From contig DGQJ01000364.1 in assembly GCA_002389705.1 (NCBI GenBank), positions 13,691-21,476 on the forward strand: a stretch of 7,786 nt of DNA, written 5' to 3'. Shown in pieces: positions 108 to 7,783 of the stretch. Both the position numbers and the translations under genes were made by a program. The notes under the pieces are model-generated. The model saw only the letters and a program-made list of their open reading frames with translations. It made no database searches and was not told the origin of the DNA. Origin of the DNA: Bacteroidales bacterium UBA4417 (GTDB taxonomy: Bacteria > Bacteroidota > Bacteroidia > Bacteroidales > UBA4417). Within the stretch, counting starts at the first letter, position 1. Each line of letters begins with the position of its first letter.

Positions 108-554
108 ATGAAAACCGAAAACAGAGTAATACTCCTGGTTGAGGACAATGCCAGTGATGTTGAGTTGACAAAAAGAGCATTGTTAAAAGAAAACATTACA
201 AATGAAGTTGTGGTTGCCGAAGATGGGCAGGAAGCGCTTAACTACATGTTTGGTGAAGGCGAGTACCATGGACGCAAAGTTCACCAACTCCCTGCATTGG
301 TACTACTGGATATCAACCTCCCGATTATTGACGGCATTGAAGTGTTGAGACGAATACGGCAGGACCCACGCACACACCGGCAGTTGGTTGTAATTCTCAC
401 ATCATCAAAAGAAGAACAGGACATATTGAAAAGTTACGACCTGGGTGTAAACAGTTATATCCGCAAACCAGTTGATTTCAACCAGTTTTCGGAAGCTATC
501 CGTTGCCTGGGTATGTACTGGCTGGTAATTAATGAACCTCCACCATCAAGATAG
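108..554 (+). CDS. Single-domain response regulator, Rcp1-like receiver
   Basis: A stand-alone receiver (REC) domain of 148 aa, which accepts a phosphoryl group from a histidine kinase or phosphorelay and acts through protein contacts, as it has no DNA-binding or enzymatic domain. The acidic pair is Glu12-Asp13, the phospho-acceptor is Asp68 (in LLDINLP), the switch residue is Thr98 and the conserved lysine is Lys120 followed by Pro121. The insertion around residues 46-62 (YMFGEGEYHGRK) and the WLVINEPPP ending match the Rcp1 family, whose members often serve PAS/GAF or phytochrome-type kinases; the partner here is unknown. The stop at 552-554 lies 6 bases before the next start, so the two genes are almost certainly co-transcribed. 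No phytochrome is present in the window, so a light-sensing role is not supported. Confidence 0.93.
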   Translation: MKTENRVILLVEDNASDVELTKRALLKENITNEVVVAEDGQEALNYMFGEGEYHGRKVHQLPALVLLDINLPIIDGIEVLRRIRQDPRTHRQLVVILTSSKEEQDILKSYDLGVNSYIRKPVDFNQFSEAIRCLGMYWLVINEPPPSR

Positions 555-560
555 AAGGAT

Positions 561-2366
561 ATGGAAAAACCTTTACGCATACTTATCGTTGAAGATAATA
601 CCAGTGATGTTGAAATTGTTAAAAGACTCCTGAATAAAGGAGGTTTTCATTTTACAGATAAGGTGGTTGATTCGAAAGAAGAATTTCTTTCGGCTATGTC
701 CGATTTTGAACCCGAACTTATTCTTTGCGACTATTCGATGCCACGGTTTGATGGCATGAGAGCGCTGCTTATCCGCAAGGAAATGGCACCATTAACACCT
801 TTTATACTGGTTACTGGTTCGGTAAACGAAGAAGTAGCCGTGGAATGTATGAAAGCCGGGGCTGACGATTATGTTTTAAAACAAAACCTGATCAGGCTGG
901 TACCGGCCGTAAAGGCAGCACTCGAAAAGCAACAAACCATACGAATGCGGCAGGAAGCCGAAGCTGCCCTCCGGATCAGCGAAGAACGGTTTAAGCAAAT
1001 TGCCGAAGCAGCCGGCGAGTTTATCTGGGAAATAGATAGTAACGGGCTATACACCTATGTGAATAAAATCAGTGAAGGCATTTTGGGTTATTCGTCGAAC
1101 GAAATTGTTGGCAAAAAACATTTTTACGACTTCTTTGTACCCGAACTGGCAGAACAACTGAAAAAGGATGCATTCAAGGCTTTCGCTGACAAATCAGGCT
1201 TTAAACGCTTCGAAAATGCCAATATACATAGGGATGGACATATTGTAATACTCTCCACTACTGGTATGCCAGTGTTGGATGCTGAAGGTAACCTACTCGG
1301 GTACCGCGGTGTAGATACTGATATTACTGAACAGAAAAAAGCTGAACTGGCCCTGCGCGAAAGCGAGGAACGATTCAGGAACCTTTATTCCAATATGGCC
1401 GAAGGGGTCTGCCTTCAGAAACTGGTTTTCGATCACCATGGCAAAGCAATTGACTACCAGATTATCGGGGTAAACCAGCAATATGAAAACATACTGGGAA
1501 TTAAGCAGGAAGATGTTGTTGGCAAACTGGCATCAGAGGTGTACGACCACAGTCCGGCTCCCTACCTGACAGTATATTCCTCGGTAGTAAAAACAGGAAT
1601 TCCTTATGCGTTTGAGAGCTTTTACGAACCCATGAACAAGCATTTCTCCATATCCGTATCTCCCTGGGATAAGGATGGGTTTGCCACCATTTTTGCAGAT
1701 ATCACGCACCGGGTTAAAGCTGAGGAAGTACTCAGGCAGGAGCGGATGATGCTTCGTACGCTGATTGATCATATCCCTGACAGTATTTTTGTTAAAGACG
1801 CACAGGCTCGTAAAACCATAGCCAATCCGGCCGACCTTATCATCATGCAGTTAGCCACCGAAGCCGAGGCTATTGGTAAAACCGACCTCGAGTTATTCCC
1901 GGGTGAAACGGGACAAGCATGGTATAATGACGATATGACTGTAATTTCATCAGGACAGCCTCTCCTGAATAATGAAGGGTATTATATTGATGAAAACGGC
2001 AACAAACGTTGGCAGGTAGCTTCTAAAATACCGTTAAAGGACGAAGCGGGCCATATCATCGGGCTGGTTGGCATAGGTCACGACATCACGAAGCAACGCC
2101 AGACCGAAGAAGAAATAAGGCAAAAAGTTAAGGAACTGGCACTTTCGAACGATGAGCTCACCAGGTTCAACCGACTGGCCATTGGCCGAGAAATGCGTAT
2201 GATAGAACTCAAACAGCATTGCAACCGGCTTTCCAAACAACTCGGGTTGGCCGAACCCTACAACCTCGATTTCCTGAAACAGGATGTAAGCCAGATGTAT
2301 GATGATAAAAATCCTTCCATCCCATTGAAAAAAACCAATCTGAAAACCGATTCGGAATCAGACTGA
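561..2366 (+). CDS. Receiver-PAS-PAS-PAS protein without kinase domain
   Basis: A 601-aa soluble signalling protein with an N-terminal REC domain (about 5-125; Glu11-Asp12, phospho-acceptor Asp57, Thr85, Lys107) and three PAS/PAC units at about 143-257, 271-382 and 396-510, each ending in a D-I-T motif and joined by helical linkers. Residues 511-601 form a predicted coiled coil containing RFNRLAIGREMRMIELK (535-551), then a polar tail. There is no His-box, ATPase, GGDEF/EAL or DNA-binding domain. The Lys107-Gln pair instead of Lys-Pro is common in receivers fused to PAS domains. It probably links phosphorylation to PAS ligand sensing and works by binding a partner. Its receiver start resembles that of the gene before it (VEDNxSDVE). 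AAGGA at 555-559 sits only one base before the ATG, too close for a good Shine-Dalgarno site; translational coupling is more likely. Confidence 0.9.
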   Translation: MEKPLRILIVEDNTSDVEIVKRLLNKGGFHFTDKVVDSKEEFLSAMSDFEPELILCDYSMPRFDGMRALLIRKEMAPLTPFILVTGSVNEEVAVECMKAGADDYVLKQNLIRLVPAVKAALEKQQTIRMRQEAEAALRISEERFKQIAEAAGEFIWEIDSNGLYTYVNKISEGILGYSSNEIVGKKHFYDFFVPELAEQLKKDAFKAFADKSGFKRFENANIHRDGHIVILSTTGMPVLDAEGNLLGYRGVDTDITEQKKAELALRESEERFRNLYSNMAEGVCLQKLVFDHHGKAIDYQIIGVNQQYENILGIKQEDVVGKLASEVYDHSPAPYLTVYSSVVKTGIPYAFESFYEPMNKHFSISVSPWDKDGFATIFADITHRVKAEEVLRQERMMLRTLIDHIPDSIFVKDAQARKTIANPADLIIMQLATEAEAIGKTDLELFPGETGQAWYNDDMTVISSGQPLLNNEGYYIDENGNKRWQVASKIPLKDEAGHIIGLVGIGHDITKQRQTEEEIRQKVKELALSNDELTRFNRLAIGREMRMIELKQHCNRLSKQLGLAEPYNLDFLKQDVSQMYDDKNPSIPLKKTNLKTDSESD

Positions 2367-2500: not shown

Positions 2501-2519
2501 TGTAGTGCTAATTGCTACA
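2501..2519. promoter_or_regulatory. Dyad TGTAG-N9-CTACA, candidate operator (copy 1)
   Basis: A perfect inverted repeat with 5-base arms and a 9-base spacer, centred about 77 bases before the -7 box. An identical arrangement at the same distance from the promoter occurs at 5024-5042. The position suits an activator site upstream of the promoter. The NarL-type regulator at 4173-4805 is a candidate ligand by context only. Confidence 0.45.
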
Positions 2520-2560
2520 TCACTAGTATTAAATCAGCTACAGTTGAATGCAATGAACAT

Positions 2561-2594
2561 CTATAGTGTATTTATTTTACAACTTATATTTTTG
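2561..2594 (+). promoter_or_regulatory. Promoter of the PAS kinase gene
   Basis: TATTTTTG at 2587-2594 fits the Bacteroidota -7 consensus TAnnTTTG exactly. No TTTG/TTG -33 box stands at the usual spacing; CTATAG at 2561-2566 occupies that place, 20 bases upstream. Both elements, with the same 20-base spacing and with TAC following, recur at 5084-5120. Transcription would start near 2600 and leave a leader of about 20 bases before the ATG at 2619. Confidence 0.65.
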
Positions 2595-2618
2595 TACGAG
2601 TAAAAACAATAAATTTTC

Positions 2619-4043
2619 ATGAACAAGGAAACAAATGCACAAACCATTGAACAGCTTCAGCTCGAAAATGGAGAACTGCGTTTGCAACTTGCTGTTTCGC
2701 AGGCAGCGCTCAATGCCATCAGGAATATTCATCAGGACACACTTTCGGGGCCTGGTGTAAATATTAACAACATTATTTCCACCTCTCTGAGCGAAACTTC
2801 GGCCCAAACTTTCCTGGAAAAAATGAAAGAAGGAGCGCTGATACTCGCACCCAATGGCAAAATTGTGTATTGCAACAGCCATTTTGGAGGTCTCATGAAT
2901 TTACCGGTCGAAAAAATAATCGGGGCTAGACCCCAGGATTTTGTCATGCCGGCCCAGAAACATAATTTTGAAATCCTCCTGCGTAAACAACAACTGGAAC
3001 CGGGTATAATTCACGCGCTTTTCCAACCCTCCAAAAATTGCCCGCCCATACCATTAAGCCTTTCTTTCAGCCACCTCTCAGGCAAAGGAAGCGAAGGCGA
3101 AATCGGGATAATTGCCACTGATATTTCGGAATACAAAGCTATAGAAGATCAATTGCGCGAAGCCCATAACACCCTCGAAAAGCGTGTAGCTGAACGTACC
3201 GAAAACCTGGCAAAAGCCAACGAAGAATTGTCGAAAGCCCGCATCGCAACGCTGAGCATGATGGCCGACAATATGGAGGTGATGAATGAGTTAGAGGTTA
3301 CCAATGCCAAACTGCTTACTGAAATTGGCGAACGTACGAAATCGGAAATAAAGCTGGAAGAAGCCAATGAGCAGCTCAGGGCACTTACATCGCGAATTGT
3401 AACCGTGCGCGAAGAAGAACGCACAGCGCTCTCGCGCGAAATACACGACGAACTGGGTTCGGCACTCACCGGCGTTAAGATGGGGCTTATGCACATTAAA
3501 CGCACGTTACCCGAAAACGACTCAGGCAAAGAATCCGCACAAATACAGGAGCTTATAGTCTCAATGACCAATATTATTGACGGCACCATCCGTATGGTAC
3601 GCAAAATTATTACAGACTTGCGCCCCGAAATACTCGATGAAGTTGGACTTTCGGAAGCGCTGCAATGGTACGCAGGCGAATTCGAGAAAAGAACCGGTAT
3701 TTCGATACAATTTACGGTTTTCCCCCGAAAATTTAGCCTCGATAAAAATCAAACAACTCAACTTTTCCGTATCTTTCAGGAGATATTGGCCAATATAGCA
3801 AAACATGCAGGAGCTACCAAGGTTATTGTATTTCTAAAGAAAGAACAAACACTTGTTACACTGAGGGTTAAAGACGATGGCATCGGGATAAAGGAATCGG
3901 ATATGGCCAACAAAAATTCATTCGGCCTGATCGGAATCAGGGAAAGGGCAAGCCTGATGGGTGGGCATATGAATATAAAAGGAGTTGAAGGCAATGGCAC
4001 AACTATAAGTATTGAAGTACCACTGGTTAATAAGGTAAAATAA
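2619..4043 (+). CDS. Soluble PAS sensor histidine kinase, NarX/DegS type (HisKA_3)
   Basis: A 474-aa cytoplasmic sensor kinase. Residues 9-40 are helical and run into a linker (LNAIRN), then a PAS domain (about 65-170, beginning FLEKMKEGALIL and ending in D-I-S). A coiled coil follows (about 171-265), including a segment at 208-243 that recurs in the hybrid kinase at 5346-7349. The HisKA_3 dimerization domain carries phospho-acceptor His276 in REIHDELG. The ATPase domain shows the N box (Asn392, His396), DDGIGI (419-424) and SFGLIGIRER (434-443). Kinases of this class phosphorylate NarL/FixJ regulators, and one is encoded next at 4173-4805. There are no membrane helices, so the signal is internal; residues binding a cofactor in the PAS domain are not evident. 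The start is supported by the promoter about 25 bases upstream. Confidence 0.93.
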   Translation: MNKETNAQTIEQLQLENGELRLQLAVSQAALNAIRNIHQDTLSGPGVNINNIISTSLSETSAQTFLEKMKEGALILAPNGKIVYCNSHFGGLMNLPVEKIIGARPQDFVMPAQKHNFEILLRKQQLEPGIIHALFQPSKNCPPIPLSLSFSHLSGKGSEGEIGIIATDISEYKAIEDQLREAHNTLEKRVAERTENLAKANEELSKARIATLSMMADNMEVMNELEVTNAKLLTEIGERTKSEIKLEEANEQLRALTSRIVTVREEERTALSREIHDELGSALTGVKMGLMHIKRTLPENDSGKESAQIQELIVSMTNIIDGTIRMVRKIITDLRPEILDEVGLSEALQWYAGEFEKRTGISIQFTVFPRKFSLDKNQTTQLFRIFQEILANIAKHAGATKVIVFLKKEQTLVTLRVKDDGIGIKESDMANKNSFGLIGIRERASLMGGHMNIKGVEGNGTTISIEVPLVNKVK

Positions 4044-4048
4044 AAGTT

Positions 4049-4075
4049 CAGTTTTCTCGCCTTGAAACTGGGCGA
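4049..4075 (+). other. Alternative short hairpins after the kinase stop codon
   Basis: CAGTTT (4049-4054) pairs with AAACTG (4065-4070), and TCGCC (4057-4061) pairs with GGCGA (4071-4075). The pairings interleave and, with no bases between the two right arms, probably exclude each other. No T-run follows, so this is not a standard terminator. It lies between the kinase and its regulator and could affect their relative expression, but this is weakly supported. Confidence 0.2.
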
Positions 4076-4172
4076 CGAAACGCACTAAAAACTTTAACAG
4101 CATTCAGTTAACCGGTGCAATTAAAATACAACGATAAGTAAAACTGAGATTTAAACTAAAAAAAAAGCAACT

Positions 4173-4805
4173 ATGATCAATATACTCATTGTTGATGATC
4201 ATGCCATAGTCCGCGAAGGGCTTAACCGCATTATTGCAGCTGAAAAGGACATGAAAGTAGCCGGCATGGCTAAGGATGGAAATGAAGTGATACGGGTAAT
4301 GCTCGATTCGGATATAGATGTAGTGGTTCTTGATATTTCGATGCCCGGCAAAAGCGGCCTCGACCTGATTAAAGACCTGAAACAGGTACAGCCCATGGTG
4401 AAAATACTGATGTTGAGCATGTACCCCGAAGAGCGTTTTGCCATGCGCTCCATTAAAGCAGGTGCATCGGGTTACCTCACCAAGGAAATGGCTCCCGAAG
4501 AAATTGTGAATGCCATACGCACCATATATTCAGGCCGTAAATACATTACACCGGCATTGGCCGACATTATTGCCGAGGAACTTCAGAACCCATCCGAAAA
4601 AGTTCCGCACGAACTGCTGTCGGATCGTGAATTCGAGGTCCTATGTATGTTGGCTATCGGGAAACCCGTTGTTGAAATTGCAGCATCGCTCTCCTTGAGT
4701 GAAAGCACCGTGAGTACTTACCGGATGCGCATTTTGCAGAAAATGGGGCTTAAAACAAACTCCGACCTCATACATTATGGCATTGAACACGGACTTGTAG
4801 AATAA
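4173..4805 (+). CDS. NarL/FixJ-family response regulator (REC + LuxR HTH)
   Basis: A 210-aa DNA-binding response regulator. The receiver (about 1-120) has the acidic pair Asp8-Asp9, phospho-acceptor Asp54, Ser82 at the switch position and Lys104. The C-terminal LuxR-type helix-turn-helix (about 147-206) begins LSDREFEVLCMLA and includes the recognition-helix region SESTVSTYR. Length and domain order are standard for the family. The gene lies 129 bases after a HisKA_3 kinase, the class that normally phosphorylates such regulators, so the two are very probably a cognate pair. No TAnnTTTG box is visible between them, so co-transcription is likely. The sequence before the start is an A-run with no clear Shine-Dalgarno site, common in this phylum. 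Target genes are unknown; the two kinase promoters in this window are candidates. Confidence 0.95.
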   Translation: MINILIVDDHAIVREGLNRIIAAEKDMKVAGMAKDGNEVIRVMLDSDIDVVVLDISMPGKSGLDLIKDLKQVQPMVKILMLSMYPEERFAMRSIKAGASGYLTKEMAPEEIVNAIRTIYSGRKYITPALADIIAEELQNPSEKVPHELLSDREFEVLCMLAIGKPVVEIAASLSLSESTVSTYRMRILQKMGLKTNSDLIHYGIEHGLVE

Positions 4806-5023
4806 AATATCCGGCATTAGACTCCGGCAAGATTCTGCAATTTAAACCTTAACCGGGAAACGCCCGATCGGAAACGGTTGCATGCTCTCAGCCAAAATGG
4901 TCTGGGTGTACACTGACCTGTTGATTCAATACTTAAGCCTGAAATCTACACTGACTATATCCGACCTTCTAAAAGCCCCGAATTTCGTCAGAAAAAATTG
5001 CGACCATTACCATTCCGTTTCCT
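4806..5023. other. Intergenic stretch with short repeats, no gene seen
   Basis: This is the first part of a 540-base gap, and no plausible coding region was found. It contains direct repeats of TCCGGCA (4810-4816 and 4823-4829) and GGAAACG (4856-4862 and 4870-4876), the palindrome GTGTACAC (4906-4913), and the second copy of the 11-mer TAAAAGCCCCG (4970-4980). None of the short repeats is strong enough to assign a function. Confidence 0.4.
4970..4980 (+). promoter_or_regulatory. Shared 11-mer TAAAAGCCCCG, copy 2
   Basis: Identical to the element at 2437-2447 and likewise upstream of the dyad and promoter of a kinase gene. Relative to the -7 box it sits 10 bases closer than copy 1, about one helical turn, which would keep the same face of the DNA. 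Confidence 0.3.
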
Positions 5024-5042
5024 TGTAGGCCTTTCAACTACA
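5024..5042. promoter_or_regulatory. Dyad TGTAG-N9-CTACA, candidate operator (copy 2)
   Basis: Same arms, same 9-base spacer and same distance to the promoter as the dyad at 2501-2519: 41 bases from the end of the dyad to CTATAG in both cases. The spacers differ in sequence, so the arms appear to be the conserved part. Confidence 0.45.
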
Positions 5043-5083
5043 CTATTTAAAGGAAAATAATTACATAAAAAGAGCACCATCCT

Positions 5084-5117
5084 CTATAGCCGGATATATA
5101 TTGTCCGGCTATTTTTG
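5084..5117 (+). promoter_or_regulatory. Promoter of the hybrid kinase gene
   Basis: CTATAG at 5084-5089, 20 bases, then TATTTTTG at 5110-5117, which matches the Bacteroidota -7 box and is followed by TAC as in the copy at 2587-2597. Transcription would begin near 5123 and produce a leader of about 220 bases before the ATG at 5346. The promoter overlaps an inverted repeat (5086-5112), so the same bases could instead be read as a terminator. Confidence 0.55.
5086..5112 (+). terminator. Perfect 9-bp hairpin followed by T-run, possible terminator
   Basis: ATAGCCGGA (5086-5094) and TCCGGCTAT (5104-5112) form a perfect 9-bp stem with a 9-base loop, followed by TTTTG (5113-5117). In RNA this has the form of an intrinsic terminator for read-through from the regulator gene ending at 4805, although the U-run is short. 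It coincides with the promoter call at 5084-5117; both functions are possible. Confidence 0.4.
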
Positions 5118-5253
5118 TACTAATCTTTTTCAGTCCTGGTAAAAAGAGAGTTATTAAAACACCAGGAAACATTAAAAGCTGAGAATCTACCTAATGAATC
5201 AAAATTAATTGAATATCTGAAACACTGAATATCCGTTGAAAACCTTGAACCAT

Positions 5254-5349
5254 ATGCCTGGAGCAAGACGTTCAGCCATTGAATCATCTGAGAAACGCAA
5301 ATTAAAAATTGCTTCACCCAAAACAAGTTACCCTATTTTTATGTTATGA
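5254..5349 (+). CDS. Candidate 31-aa leader peptide overlapping the kinase start
   Basis: A short ORF in the leader of the hybrid kinase mRNA. It starts at ATG 5254 and ends at TGA 5347-5349, which overlaps the kinase ATG at 5346-5348 in the ATGA arrangement typical of translational coupling. The predicted peptide is basic (MPGARRSAIESSEKRKLKI at the start) and not recognised. There is no Shine-Dalgarno site, and 31 open codons can occur by chance, so it may be only an untranslated leader. If translated, it could tune expression of the kinase. Expression is unproven. Confidence 0.25.
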   Translation: MPGARRSAIESSEKRKLKIASPKTSYPIFML

Positions 5350-7349
5350 GAAACAGCATGTCCCATAGCACGAATTTCGAACAACTGCATAAGAATCAAA
5401 AATATACTAAAAAGCAAAATGTATCGAAGCAAGCAAGCACCTTTAACTTGTATGACAATTATAATGCTATGCCACCACTAAAAGGAAACAAAAAGAAAGT
5501 TTCAGCCAGGATCAGAACCATGCAGTCAGAACACTTTTACAAGGAACTGAATATTCCATCATTCGAAGGACGCCCCTGGGACGAAGAACTTTATATAACC
5601 CGTATTGCCACGCTCAGCATGATGGAGGATGCAGTGGAAGCAAGAATATCTCTCGAAAATACCAACAAAAAATTACTCGAAGAAATTGCGGAGCGTACCC
5701 GTTCCGAAAAAATAACACAGGTGCTTTATGCAATATCCAATGCAGCCCAAACAGCCATTGATGTTGATGAACTCATCGGGATTATAAGGCACGAGCTCGG
5801 CACTCTGATTGATACAACTAATTTTTATGTAGCTTTTTACAATGCCGAAACCGGCTTGCTTTCGGCATCAAGTGCCAGCGACGAGATGGATTTTTTCGAA
5901 ACCTGGCCTGCTGAAAAATCGTTGACCGGAATTGTAATCCACGAAAACAAATCCAGGCTTTTCACCCGGGACGAAATCCTAGGCATGAACCAGGATGGCG
6001 AAATTGATATTATAGGCAGCCTGCCACAGGTTTGGATGGGTGTTCCGCTGCTTGTTGATGGAACTGCAGGTGGTGCATTTGTAATACAGAATTACCATGA
6101 TGTAAATGCCTATACCCCGAAAGATCTGGATATGCTCGAATTTATTTCGAACCAGATCAGCATTTCCATACAACGAAAAAAAAATGTACAGCACCTGGAA
6201 GCCGCCCTGCTGAAAGCCGAAGAAAATGATCGCCTCAAAACTGCTTTTCTGCACAATATCTCACACGAGATACGCACTCCCATGAATGCCATTATAGGCT
6301 TTTCCGGATTTTTAAACGACCCCGACCTTAAAGCTGGTGAAATGCAGGAATACACCGAAATAATCTGCAATGCCACCCACCAATTGCTATCTATCATTGA
6401 GGATATCATCAACATATCCACCCTGGAAGCCGGGCAGGAAATAATCGTTCATAAGGAAACCAATATTAATGCGCTGCTCACAGCACTAAACAAACAGTTC
6501 CAGGGGAAAATAATTAACTCGGATATTGATCTCCGGATTAACAGTTCATTACCCGATGACGCGGCAATAATTACTACCGACGAAACAAAACTGCTGCAAA
6601 TCATGACCAACCTGCTGAACAATGCCTGCAAGTTCACCCGGAAAGGTAAAGTAAGCCTGGACGTTGAGGTTAAAAACAATTACCTCGAGTTTCGAGTGCA
6701 GGACACAGGCATTGGAATAGATAAAAGTATGCACCAGGCCATTTTTGAACGCTTCAGGCAGGCCGATGGCAATATTGCCCGCGAATTTGGAGGAACAGGG
6801 CTGGGTTTATCGATTTCGAAAGCATACGTTGAATTACTGGGCGGTAAAATATGGGTTGACGCTGAACCAGGAAAGGGCTCAACCTTCTTTTTTACCATTC
6901 CATATGTGCCTGTAAATACAGCCTTGGAAGCACAGGAGCAAAAAACAGAGGTCGAAATGCTTGCGCCCGATCAACAAAAAACCATCCTGATTGCCGAAGA
7001 CGAAAAATTCAACTACATGCTGATCAGTGAAATGTTTAAAGGCATGAATACCAAACTCATTTGGGCCAAAAACGGGTGGGAAGTACTGCAAGCCTGTCAT
7101 ACAGTCGAAAAAATTGACCTGGTACTTATGGATATGAAAATGCCGGTTATGGATGGTTTTGAAGCCACCCAGATGCTCCGTGGATTTTACCCGGAAATTC
7201 CGATTGTTGCCCAAACAGCCTACGCCAGTGAAAAGGAAAAGCAACGCATACTCGAATGCGGATGCAACGAGATGATAACAAAACCTTTTGACGTGAACCA
7301 GTTCAGGTTAATCGTGAACAAATACTTATCGTTCAACAGTAACAATTAG
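5346..7349 (+). CDS. Soluble GAF hybrid histidine kinase with C-terminal receiver
   Basis: A 667-aa hybrid kinase. Residues 1-85 are basic and polar with no recognisable domain. Residues 86-121 form a coiled-coil segment 24/36 identical to one in the kinase at 2619-4043. A GAF sensor domain follows (about 125-278). HisKA carries phospho-acceptor His307 in SHEIRTPMN. The ATPase domain shows the N box (Asn425-Asn426), DTGIGI (453-458) and FGGTGLGLS (481-489). The receiver (about 548-665) has Glu551-Asp552, Asp596, Thr624 and Lys646-Pro647. All catalytic residues are present. No membrane helix is seen, so the signal is intracellular. Hybrid kinases usually relay through an HPt protein; none is in the window, so the final target is unknown. 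In-frame ATGs at 5358, 5469 and 5520 are alternative starts; 5346 gives the ATGA overlap with the leader ORF. Confidence 0.92.
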   Translation: MRNSMSHSTNFEQLHKNQKYTKKQNVSKQASTFNLYDNYNAMPPLKGNKKKVSARIRTMQSEHFYKELNIPSFEGRPWDEELYITRIATLSMMEDAVEARISLENTNKKLLEEIAERTRSEKITQVLYAISNAAQTAIDVDELIGIIRHELGTLIDTTNFYVAFYNAETGLLSASSASDEMDFFETWPAEKSLTGIVIHENKSRLFTRDEILGMNQDGEIDIIGSLPQVWMGVPLLVDGTAGGAFVIQNYHDVNAYTPKDLDMLEFISNQISISIQRKKNVQHLEAALLKAEENDRLKTAFLHNISHEIRTPMNAIIGFSGFLNDPDLKAGEMQEYTEIICNATHQLLSIIEDIINISTLEAGQEIIVHKETNINALLTALNKQFQGKIINSDIDLRINSSLPDDAAIITTDETKLLQIMTNLLNNACKFTRKGKVSLDVEVKNNYLEFRVQDTGIGIDKSMHQAIFERFRQADGNIAREFGGTGLGLSISKAYVELLGGKIWVDAEPGKGSTFFFTIPYVPVNTALEAQEQKTEVEMLAPDQQKTILIAEDEKFNYMLISEMFKGMNTKLIWAKNGWEVLQACHTVEKIDLVLMDMKMPVMDGFEATQMLRGFYPEIPIVAQTAYASEKEKQRILECGCNEMITKPFDVNQFRLIVNKYLSFNSNN

Positions 7350-7442: not shown

Positions 7443-7532
7443 ATGAATTTCTCATTAGTTGCAGTTCTCATCGCATTTTTGCTGGTAATAACATTCGGAG
7501 GTAAATTATTTGCAAAGTTTTTTAAAAGATGA
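7443..7532 (+). CDS. Probable 29-aa single-pass membrane peptide
   Basis: A 29-codon ORF from ATG 7443 to TGA 7530-7532. The peptide starts MNFSLVAVLIAFLLVITFGG, a hydrophobic stretch (about residues 4-19) long enough for one membrane helix. It ends in a short basic, aromatic tail with Lys21, Lys25, Lys28 and Arg29 and several Phe. The positive-inside rule would put the C terminus in the cytoplasm. The size and layout resemble small membrane proteins such as KdpF-like subunits or TisB-like toxins, but it lacks specific features of either, so no function is given. It follows the hybrid kinase by 93 bases. No Shine-Dalgarno site is visible, which is usual here. The clean split into hydrophobic and charged parts favours a real gene; its short length is the main doubt. 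Confidence 0.5.
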   Translation: MNFSLVAVLIAFLLVITFGGKLFAKFFKR

Positions 7533-7775: not shown

Positions 7776-7783
7776 TATATTTG
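7776..7783 (+). promoter_or_regulatory. Promoter -7 box for a gene beyond the window
   Basis: TATATTTG matches the TAnnTTTG consensus exactly and points out of the window to the right. CAATAG at 7751-7756, 19 bases upstream, loosely recalls the CTATAG of the two kinase promoters. The dyad seen at those promoters is absent here. Confidence 0.45.

Follow-up and report, generated by a model that had tools for sequence, protein, structure and literature searches.

Promoters with phased CTACA half-sites precede signalling, exopolysaccharide and surface-type genes in a Bacteroidales genome and are likely bound by a NarL/FixJ-type response regulator

We analysed a 7,786-nucleotide stretch of Bacteroidales bacterium UBA4417 (contig DGQJ01000364.1, positions 13,691 to 21,476; hereafter the window, G000:C325:13691-21476), which encodes two sensor kinases and, between them, a response regulator of the NarL/FixJ type. 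Each kinase gene is preceded by a promoter, A and B respectively, in which CTACA half-sites follow one another at a pitch of 23 base pairs (bp) and end at a fixed distance from a predicted Bacteroidota -7 box. Array promoters of this kind precede signalling, exopolysaccharide and surface-type genes in the genome as annotated by sequence. With a probability of about 0.78, judged from sequence comparison, we consider that they are likely bound by the NarL/FixJ regulator, which would thereby switch on the kinases, itself and exopolysaccharide and surface-type genes.

Results

The two window promoters belong to a genome-wide set of phased arrays

First-pass annotation of the window had described a twin promoter in which four blocks recur with a constant offset of 2523, and a script reproduced all of them: TGTAG, CTACA and CTATAG at the places given in Table 1, and TATTTTTGTAC at 2587 and 5110. 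Overlooked in that annotation was a third shared block, CTACA in promoter A and TTACA in promoter B. The full plan reads TGTAG-N9-CTACA-N18-YTACA-N18-CTATAG-N20-TATTTTTG, the general form of the -7 box being TAnnTTTG. CTACA, YTACA and CTATA(G) thus stand at 23-bp pitch, the last half-site starts 26 bp before the TA of the -7 box, and the inverted repeat TGTAG-N9-CTACA is the furthest-upstream element in both copies. With the third block included and up to three mismatches allowed, the pattern matches twice in the window and not at all in 200 shuffles; the -7 box alone is common, with 10 TAnnTTTG in the window versus 8.2 expected. Two more words are common to both upstream regions, TAAAAGCCCCG at 2437-2447 and 4970-4980 (offset 2533) and CCTGAAAT at 2417-2424 and 4938-4945 (offset 2521 rather than 2523).

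A first search of the own genome (G000; an assembly of 412 contigs at 74% completeness) that allowed loose spacing found four matches against none for the control, and it was their alignment that revealed the half-site between CTACA and CTATAG. At no more than one mismatch the genome holds eight sites (five forward, three reverse). Elsewhere among the 16 genomes searched of the genus, to which G002, G004, G012 and G015 also belong, there are six such sites in G015 and one in G002; at this threshold no site was found in the other 13 genus genomes or in 133 further genomes of the order. The reversed pattern matched once among the 133 and never in the own genome or the genus. Allowing two mismatches across the 16 genomes gave 11 sites in the own genome, six in G015 and one in G002 (control 0). 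The 11 are what is left of a 16-row list in which five rows were arrays one repeat out of register (reversed control 1), and they include three weak two-mismatch rows (C174, C380:13142 and C25) that we list and do not rely on. All eight own-genome and six G015 sites are intergenic and point at the next gene in the table of open reading frames (ORFs), C380:26484 in G000 and C96:12552 in G015 overlapping ORFs of 85 and 114 amino acids (aa) that we took to be spurious.

In relatives the pitch is 22-23 bp. A genus search with both pitches returned 13 exact arrays in five of the 16 genomes (control 0), and a phylum search of the same kind matched three of 395 genomes: the own genome, G239 and G503. 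We put the last two matches down to chance despite a reversed control of 0, their neighbouring ORFs showing neither regulator nor kinase by eye. The shared plan of the twin promoter stands, and the word twin does not: the genome has at least eight such promoters, and the blocks first described were a phased array seen in part. The array set is best read as a regulon whose operator is new but belongs to a known kind.

Arrays and their upstream dyad accompany one subfamily of regulators

The likely binder of the arrays is the NarL/FixJ-type regulator of the window, whose sequence matches an N-terminal receiver domain (PF00072, 98.3 bits) and a C-terminal GerE helix-turn-helix (PF00196, 60.4 bits). 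Its 89% orthologue is found in G015 only, every other match in the 16 genomes reaching at most 46%, and G015 is also the one other genome of the 16 with a large site set. Four of the 13 exact genus arrays lie outside the G000 and G015 sets (in G002, G004, G012 and at G015:C26), all in loci of regulator homologues. A scan that ignored the half-site letters detected arrays next to two distant homologues, and a scan with the half-site found more.

We compared 80 regulator loci, of which 25 hold the closest homologues (group A) and 55 other LuxR-type regulators (group B, 342 kb); the split was made by similarity rank after 30 loci had been scanned in short form. The array rule asked for TGTAR-N8/9 plus three YTACA words with a mismatch sum of at most 4 and at most 2 in each, a distance of 26 and a pitch of 22 or 23. 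It gave 12 arrays in 10 of the 25 A loci and none in the 55 B loci (Fisher, 2e-6), with zero at six control distances; a laxer mismatch sum of 5 let two control distances give one match each in A. Under a stricter rule without TGTAR there were nine arrays in seven A loci and again none in B. Among distances from 18 to 35 only 26 produced arrays in the homologue loci (17 other distances, 0), and pitch settings including neither 22 nor 23 produced none. Of 59 permuted words, compared with nine arrays for the true word, only the near-identical CTAYA (7), TYACA (3) and CYATA (1) scored. The letter-blind scan returned 16 rows in A, of which 14 have pitch 22-23, one row in B and none in 1.1 Mb of kinase loci. 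These locus groups are not independent, since L170 and L177 overlap (L177 was left out of the dyad counts and placement below) and several members are orthologues by eye.

Outside the genus, a profile built from the alignment of eight array-linked regulators (A1) matched 111 of 198 genomes of the order at 1e-40, only 15 first-look candidates having been scored in most genomes, with a gap in scores between 230 and 203 bits. Seventeen stretches (A2), which hold the 19 regulator genes that score above the gap in genomes other than the own and come from 12 other families, and 20 control loci below it (B2) were fetched after the A/B split and scanned by the array rule. Arrays occur in two of the 17 A2 loci and in none of the 20 B2 loci; at a mismatch sum of 5, one control distance gave one match in B2. 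The dyad TGTAR-N8/9-YTACA separates the groups further: relative to the number expected from eleven other spacers it is found 26 times versus 2.0 in A and 10 versus 1.3 in A2, as against 2 versus 5.5 in B and 2 versus 1.3 in B2. Its common form is a near-perfect TGTAGGA-N4-TCCTACA, although some dyads look like chance, for instance one that lies within a gene of L171. Those in L285 and L288, from other families of the order, have N9 spacers.

Five array loci of other species or of a paralogue allowed the neighbours to be inspected. A HisKA_3 kinase (PF07730) stands beside the regulator in four of them (L171, L181, L183 and L185), no kinase was seen beside the regulator in the L174 stretch, and the ORFs scanned by Pfam at these five loci carry no other DNA-binding domain. 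We had considered a tyrosine in the recognition helix (TYR versus THR) as a marker of array-bearing regulators; arrays are absent beside the four THR members of group A, and the idea was dropped because dyads occur beside the THR members L172, L175, L178 and L289.

It is unlikely that the arrays are bound by another factor, such as a LytTR-domain regulator, with the response regulator gene merely one of its targets. LytTR sites are direct repeats about two helical turns apart, and TTCnnCTACA is indeed a direct repeat element of about 10 bp of that appearance, whose left half-sites beyond the first are weak. However, the dyad is inverted, it tracks the regulator subfamily across species and families while staying at background beside other LuxR-type regulators, and no LytTR or other DNA-binding domain appears in the ORFs scanned beside arrays, a statement that covers these neighbourhoods and not whole genomes.

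A half-site stands at the -33 position

We built a logo from 16 promoters, namely 10 G000 sites (the 11 minus C174, with C380:13142 and C25 kept) and the six of G015. It shows TTCnnCTACA at each right-hand half-site, CTATAG at the last one, TTT after half-site 1, TGTAG 14 bp before the first half-site and TA.TTTTG at the -7 box. Since the pattern served to select these promoters, the block letters are there partly by construction; neither the TTC nor the TTT behind half-site 1 nor the TGTAG belonged to that pattern. Some arrays have an extra half-site 23 bp further upstream, which is an exact fourth CTACA in five of 17 G000 and G015 promoters of that type. A TGTAG-like word (at least 4 of 5 letters) precedes the first listed half-site with N9 between them in seven of the 11 own-genome promoters and is absent in four, one of which has TGTAG-N9 one repeat further up.

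TAnnTTTG is found at the -7 position of 20 of 23 promoters, the other three ending in TTTA, in a set whose search patterns favoured TAnnTTTG. A -33 box is mostly lacking, NTTG starting 22-27 bp before the TA in only one of the 23. The rigid CTATAG-N20-TAnnTTTG and this near-absence of NTTG could suggest that an alternative sigma factor uses CTATAG and TATTTTTG as its core promoter, to which the upstream words are incidental. We regard this as quite improbable: the word at the -33 position in related loci is mostly CTACA or TTACA, that is, the upstream half-site (TTCAA in L189-L191), the 22-23 bp pitch continues through further copies, and the -7 box fits the primary sigma consensus as given in PMC7366714.

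Shared blocks point to a selected module

The first-pass annotation had also counted 51 agreeing bases in 100 and favoured a selected module over a recent duplication, and on both counts the data agree, 2501-2600 and 5024-5123 being identical at 51 positions. Identity in the 100 bp directly upstream drops at the same offset to 26/100, which is background, and a best ungapped 100-bp identity of at least 51 between the intergenic regions, at any offset, arose in one of 200 dinucleotide shuffles. The spacing with its diverged filler recurs before unrelated genes, both in the genome and in a second species. Conservation upstream of orthologous kinases, which the annotation had put forward as a check, could be followed in one case and was borne out there: the hybrid kinase has a 66%-identical match in G015 (over residues 34-662) that bears the same site (L043/L055), whereas the upstream region of the other kinase lies off that G015 contig. 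When the surroundings of 80 hybrid-kinase relatives from named genomes were scanned with up to three mismatches, the site turned up only at L055, which by length and sequence is this same contig (G015:C454).

A drifted duplication of promoter and kinase, leaving the blocks in place with no common control, is highly improbable. Two kinases do lie in one locus, and TAAAAGCCCCG (2437/4970) and CCTGAAAT (2417/4938) are shared at other offsets, but the kinases differ in kind (HisKA_3 versus HisKA hybrid) and unrelated genes on other contigs have this spacing in front of them too; we rejected promoter duplication as the source of the blocks on the 26/100 upstream identity.

The dyad could, finally, act in RNA as a terminator or messenger hairpin behind the regulator gene, given that dyads within 2 kb of 40 regulator genes (37 of 41 stretches placed) lie on the 3' side of 23 and the 5' side of five, a layout that the window repeats (regulator stop 4805, dyad 5024); this is just as improbable, as only promoter B among the eight own-genome sites directly follows this regulator gene, the stem is short and AT-rich with no T-run by eye, and a hairpin would have no use for a fixed pitch or for a fixed distance to the -7 box.

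Genes of the window and genes behind the arrays

Table 1. Features of the window and of promoters A and B.
Feature	Coordinates	Strand	Remarks
Receiver gene	108-554		
Receiver with several PAS domains	561-2366		No kinase or output domain (Pfam)
Promoter A, TGTAG	2501-2505	+	Inverted (left) half-site of upstream dyad
Promoter A, CTACA, half-site 1	2515-2519	+	
Promoter A, CTACA, half-site 2	2538-2542	+	23 bp after half-site 1
Promoter A, CTATAG, half-site 3	2561-2566	+	23 bp after half-site 2; at the place of the -33 box
Promoter A, TATTTTTG	2587-2594	+	Predicted Bacteroidota -7 box; consensus TAnnTTTG
PAS-HisKA_3-HATPase histidine kinase	2619-4043	+	474 aa; carries PF07730 (Pfam)
NarL/FixJ-type response regulator, REC + GerE	4173-4805	+	210 aa; predicted array binder (Pfam)
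Promoter B, TGTAG	5024-5028	+	Inverted half-site
Promoter B, CTACA, half-site 1	5038-5042	+	
Promoter B, TTACA, half-site 2	5061-5065	+	
Promoter B, CTATAG, half-site 3	5084-5089	+	
Promoter B, TATTTTTG	5110-5117	+	Predicted -7 box
GAF-HisKA-HATPase-REC hybrid kinase	5346-7349	+	667 aa from first start codon (Pfam)

The gap between the HisKA_3 kinase and the regulator (4044-4172) has no TAnnTTTG on the + strand, so the regulator gene is probably transcribed from promoter A together with the kinase. The true start of the hybrid kinase may be further in, because the G015 match begins at residue 34. Directly after the hybrid kinase, a 29-codon frame (7443-7532) encodes a peptide that looks membrane-spanning by eye, and a comparable short frame lies downstream of the C122 array (L034, about 1120-1269; by eye). 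A further -7-like box, TATATTTG, stands at the window end (7776-7783) with no array upstream.

In the own genome the array promoters precede, besides the two window kinases, a UDP-glucose/GDP-mannose dehydrogenase, a polysaccharide export protein, a CHASE4 + GAF hybrid kinase that contains masked bases and is read in two frames, a CheR methyltransferase with a hybrid kinase behind it, and a protein matching a type IX sorting domain below threshold. Another array precedes a receiver gene (by eye), behind which come a sugar transferase, an efflux-type protein of the outer membrane, one with both Wzz and tyrosine-kinase-like matches, a protein of 456 aa that matched nothing above the cut-off, and an O-antigen ligase. 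The weak two-mismatch row on C25 precedes a close paralogue of the export gene on C24. The G015 targets are the orthologous hybrid kinase, a large PKD-repeat protein, a protein with a sub-threshold DUF4402 match that has two clear DUF4402 genes behind it, and three proteins without a Pfam match.

Arrays precede DUF4402-type genes in both G004 (L181, 4382-6312) and G015 (L042, 2581-8589), with a weak PapD-like match in a protein further on in L042; these loci are perhaps a surface-fibre operon under this type of regulator. At L174 (G002:C392, 4548-4640) another dyad, which has two CTACA half-sites and lacks TAnnTTTG where the spacing would place it, lies upstream of a large protein at 5143 that looks secreted. 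We scanned 10 genes that come next after dyads. They encode single receivers (L172, L176 and L277), surface proteins (SprB repeats in L180, Ig/PKD-like in L184, cadherin-like in L285), a CBM48 protein (L189), FlpD (L287) and a sigma-70 region 2 protein (L288), and one is without a match (L182). A sigma factor as target in L288 would, if true, make a cascade.

Discussion

HisKA_3 kinases pair with NarL/FixJ regulators, and a HisKA_3 kinase and such a regulator are adjacent in the window. Promoters of the same plan stand before kinases, slime-polymer genes and surface-type genes, so one regulator likely switches them on together; for the two window kinases, whose co-regulation the first-pass annotation had proposed, we infer the same from their promoters. 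The upstream dyad (TGTAG-N9-CTACA, or TGTAGGA-N4-TCCTACA in relatives) would bind a first phosphorylated regulator dimer, further dimers would line up every 22-23 bp on about the same face of the helix, and the last, on CTATAG at the -33 position, would recruit polymerase in place of the missing -33 contact. Because promoter A precedes both the kinase and the regulator gene, its output would include both, which would amount to positive autoregulation.

A comparable working principle, and we use the comparison for no more than that, is found in BvgA. As described in PMC7250471, three head-to-head BvgA dimers bind every 22 bp at fhaB, with the strongest site upstream and the last abutting -35, six dimers bind at ptx, and the weak sites of BvgA are not readily predicted from their sequence. 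The arrays resemble this description in their inverted repeat furthest upstream, their regular half-sites with the last at -33, and their pitch of two turns (23 bp in G000, 22-23 in relatives). Unlike BvgA sites, they use CTACA rather than the BvgA heptad in front of a Bacteroidota -7 promoter, with binding that is predicted, and their downstream half-sites are clearly conserved in sequence where the weak BvgA sites of that account are not easily read. The primary Bacteroidota promoter (sigma-ABfr) has TTTG at -33 and TAnnTTTG at -7 according to PMC7366714; both window copies share its -7 box, whereas a half-site takes the -33 place. Against solved NarL/FixJ structures the window regulator aligns over near its full length with VraR (8.5e-30), DesR (1.7e-29), NarL (1.7e-29) and DevR (5.2e-27), all of them distant matches and likened by sequence.

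Several observations weigh against binding by the NarL/FixJ regulator or limit the case for it. Under the array rule 15 of the 25 genus homologue loci and 15 of the 17 homologue loci outside the genus have no array, the A2-B2 difference in arrays is by itself not significant (p 0.2), one stray A2 match fell at control distance 19, and the letter-blind scan is not clean outside the genus (three rows in A2, four in B2, with other words). The left half-sites of would-be dimers 2 and 3 are poorly conserved in the 16-promoter logo. G000 and G015 may be sister species, in which case the regulator and sites that they have in common may amount to a single event, and by eye several of the array loci in other species seem to be orthologues of one another. 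Absence of a -33 box may be ordinary, and weak as an argument alone, because a search for a -33 motif in Flavobacterium johnsoniae found none, according to PMC7366714. The own-genome site list is partial, because the assembly is incomplete and fragmented as stated above.

A wider proposal, which we hold only tentatively and think rather less likely to be right than wrong, is that this Bacteroidales subfamily of NarL-type regulators reads one code throughout, the dyad TGTAGGA-N4/5-TCCTACA plus phased CTACA. The number of half-sites would set a threshold, the last half-site would replace the -33 box, and a self-amplifying loop would order exopolysaccharide, adhesin and signalling genes in the manner of early and late Bvg genes.

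Bacteroidota carry many response regulators of the NarL/FixJ type; the own genome, as far as it is assembled, has 39 matches to the window regulator at E <= 0.001, some of them to the receiver domain only. A search of the open-licence PMC literature, with subscription journals outside it, found no paper giving an operator for the Bacteroidota NarL-type group and none that describes the CTACA operator itself. One regulator subfamily gains, from its DNA sequence alone, a specific and testable operator together with a list of target promoters, and these targets link sensor kinases to exopolysaccharide and surface-type genes. A predicted activator site where the -33 box would lie also makes it possible to test directly what this region does in Bacteroidota promoters.
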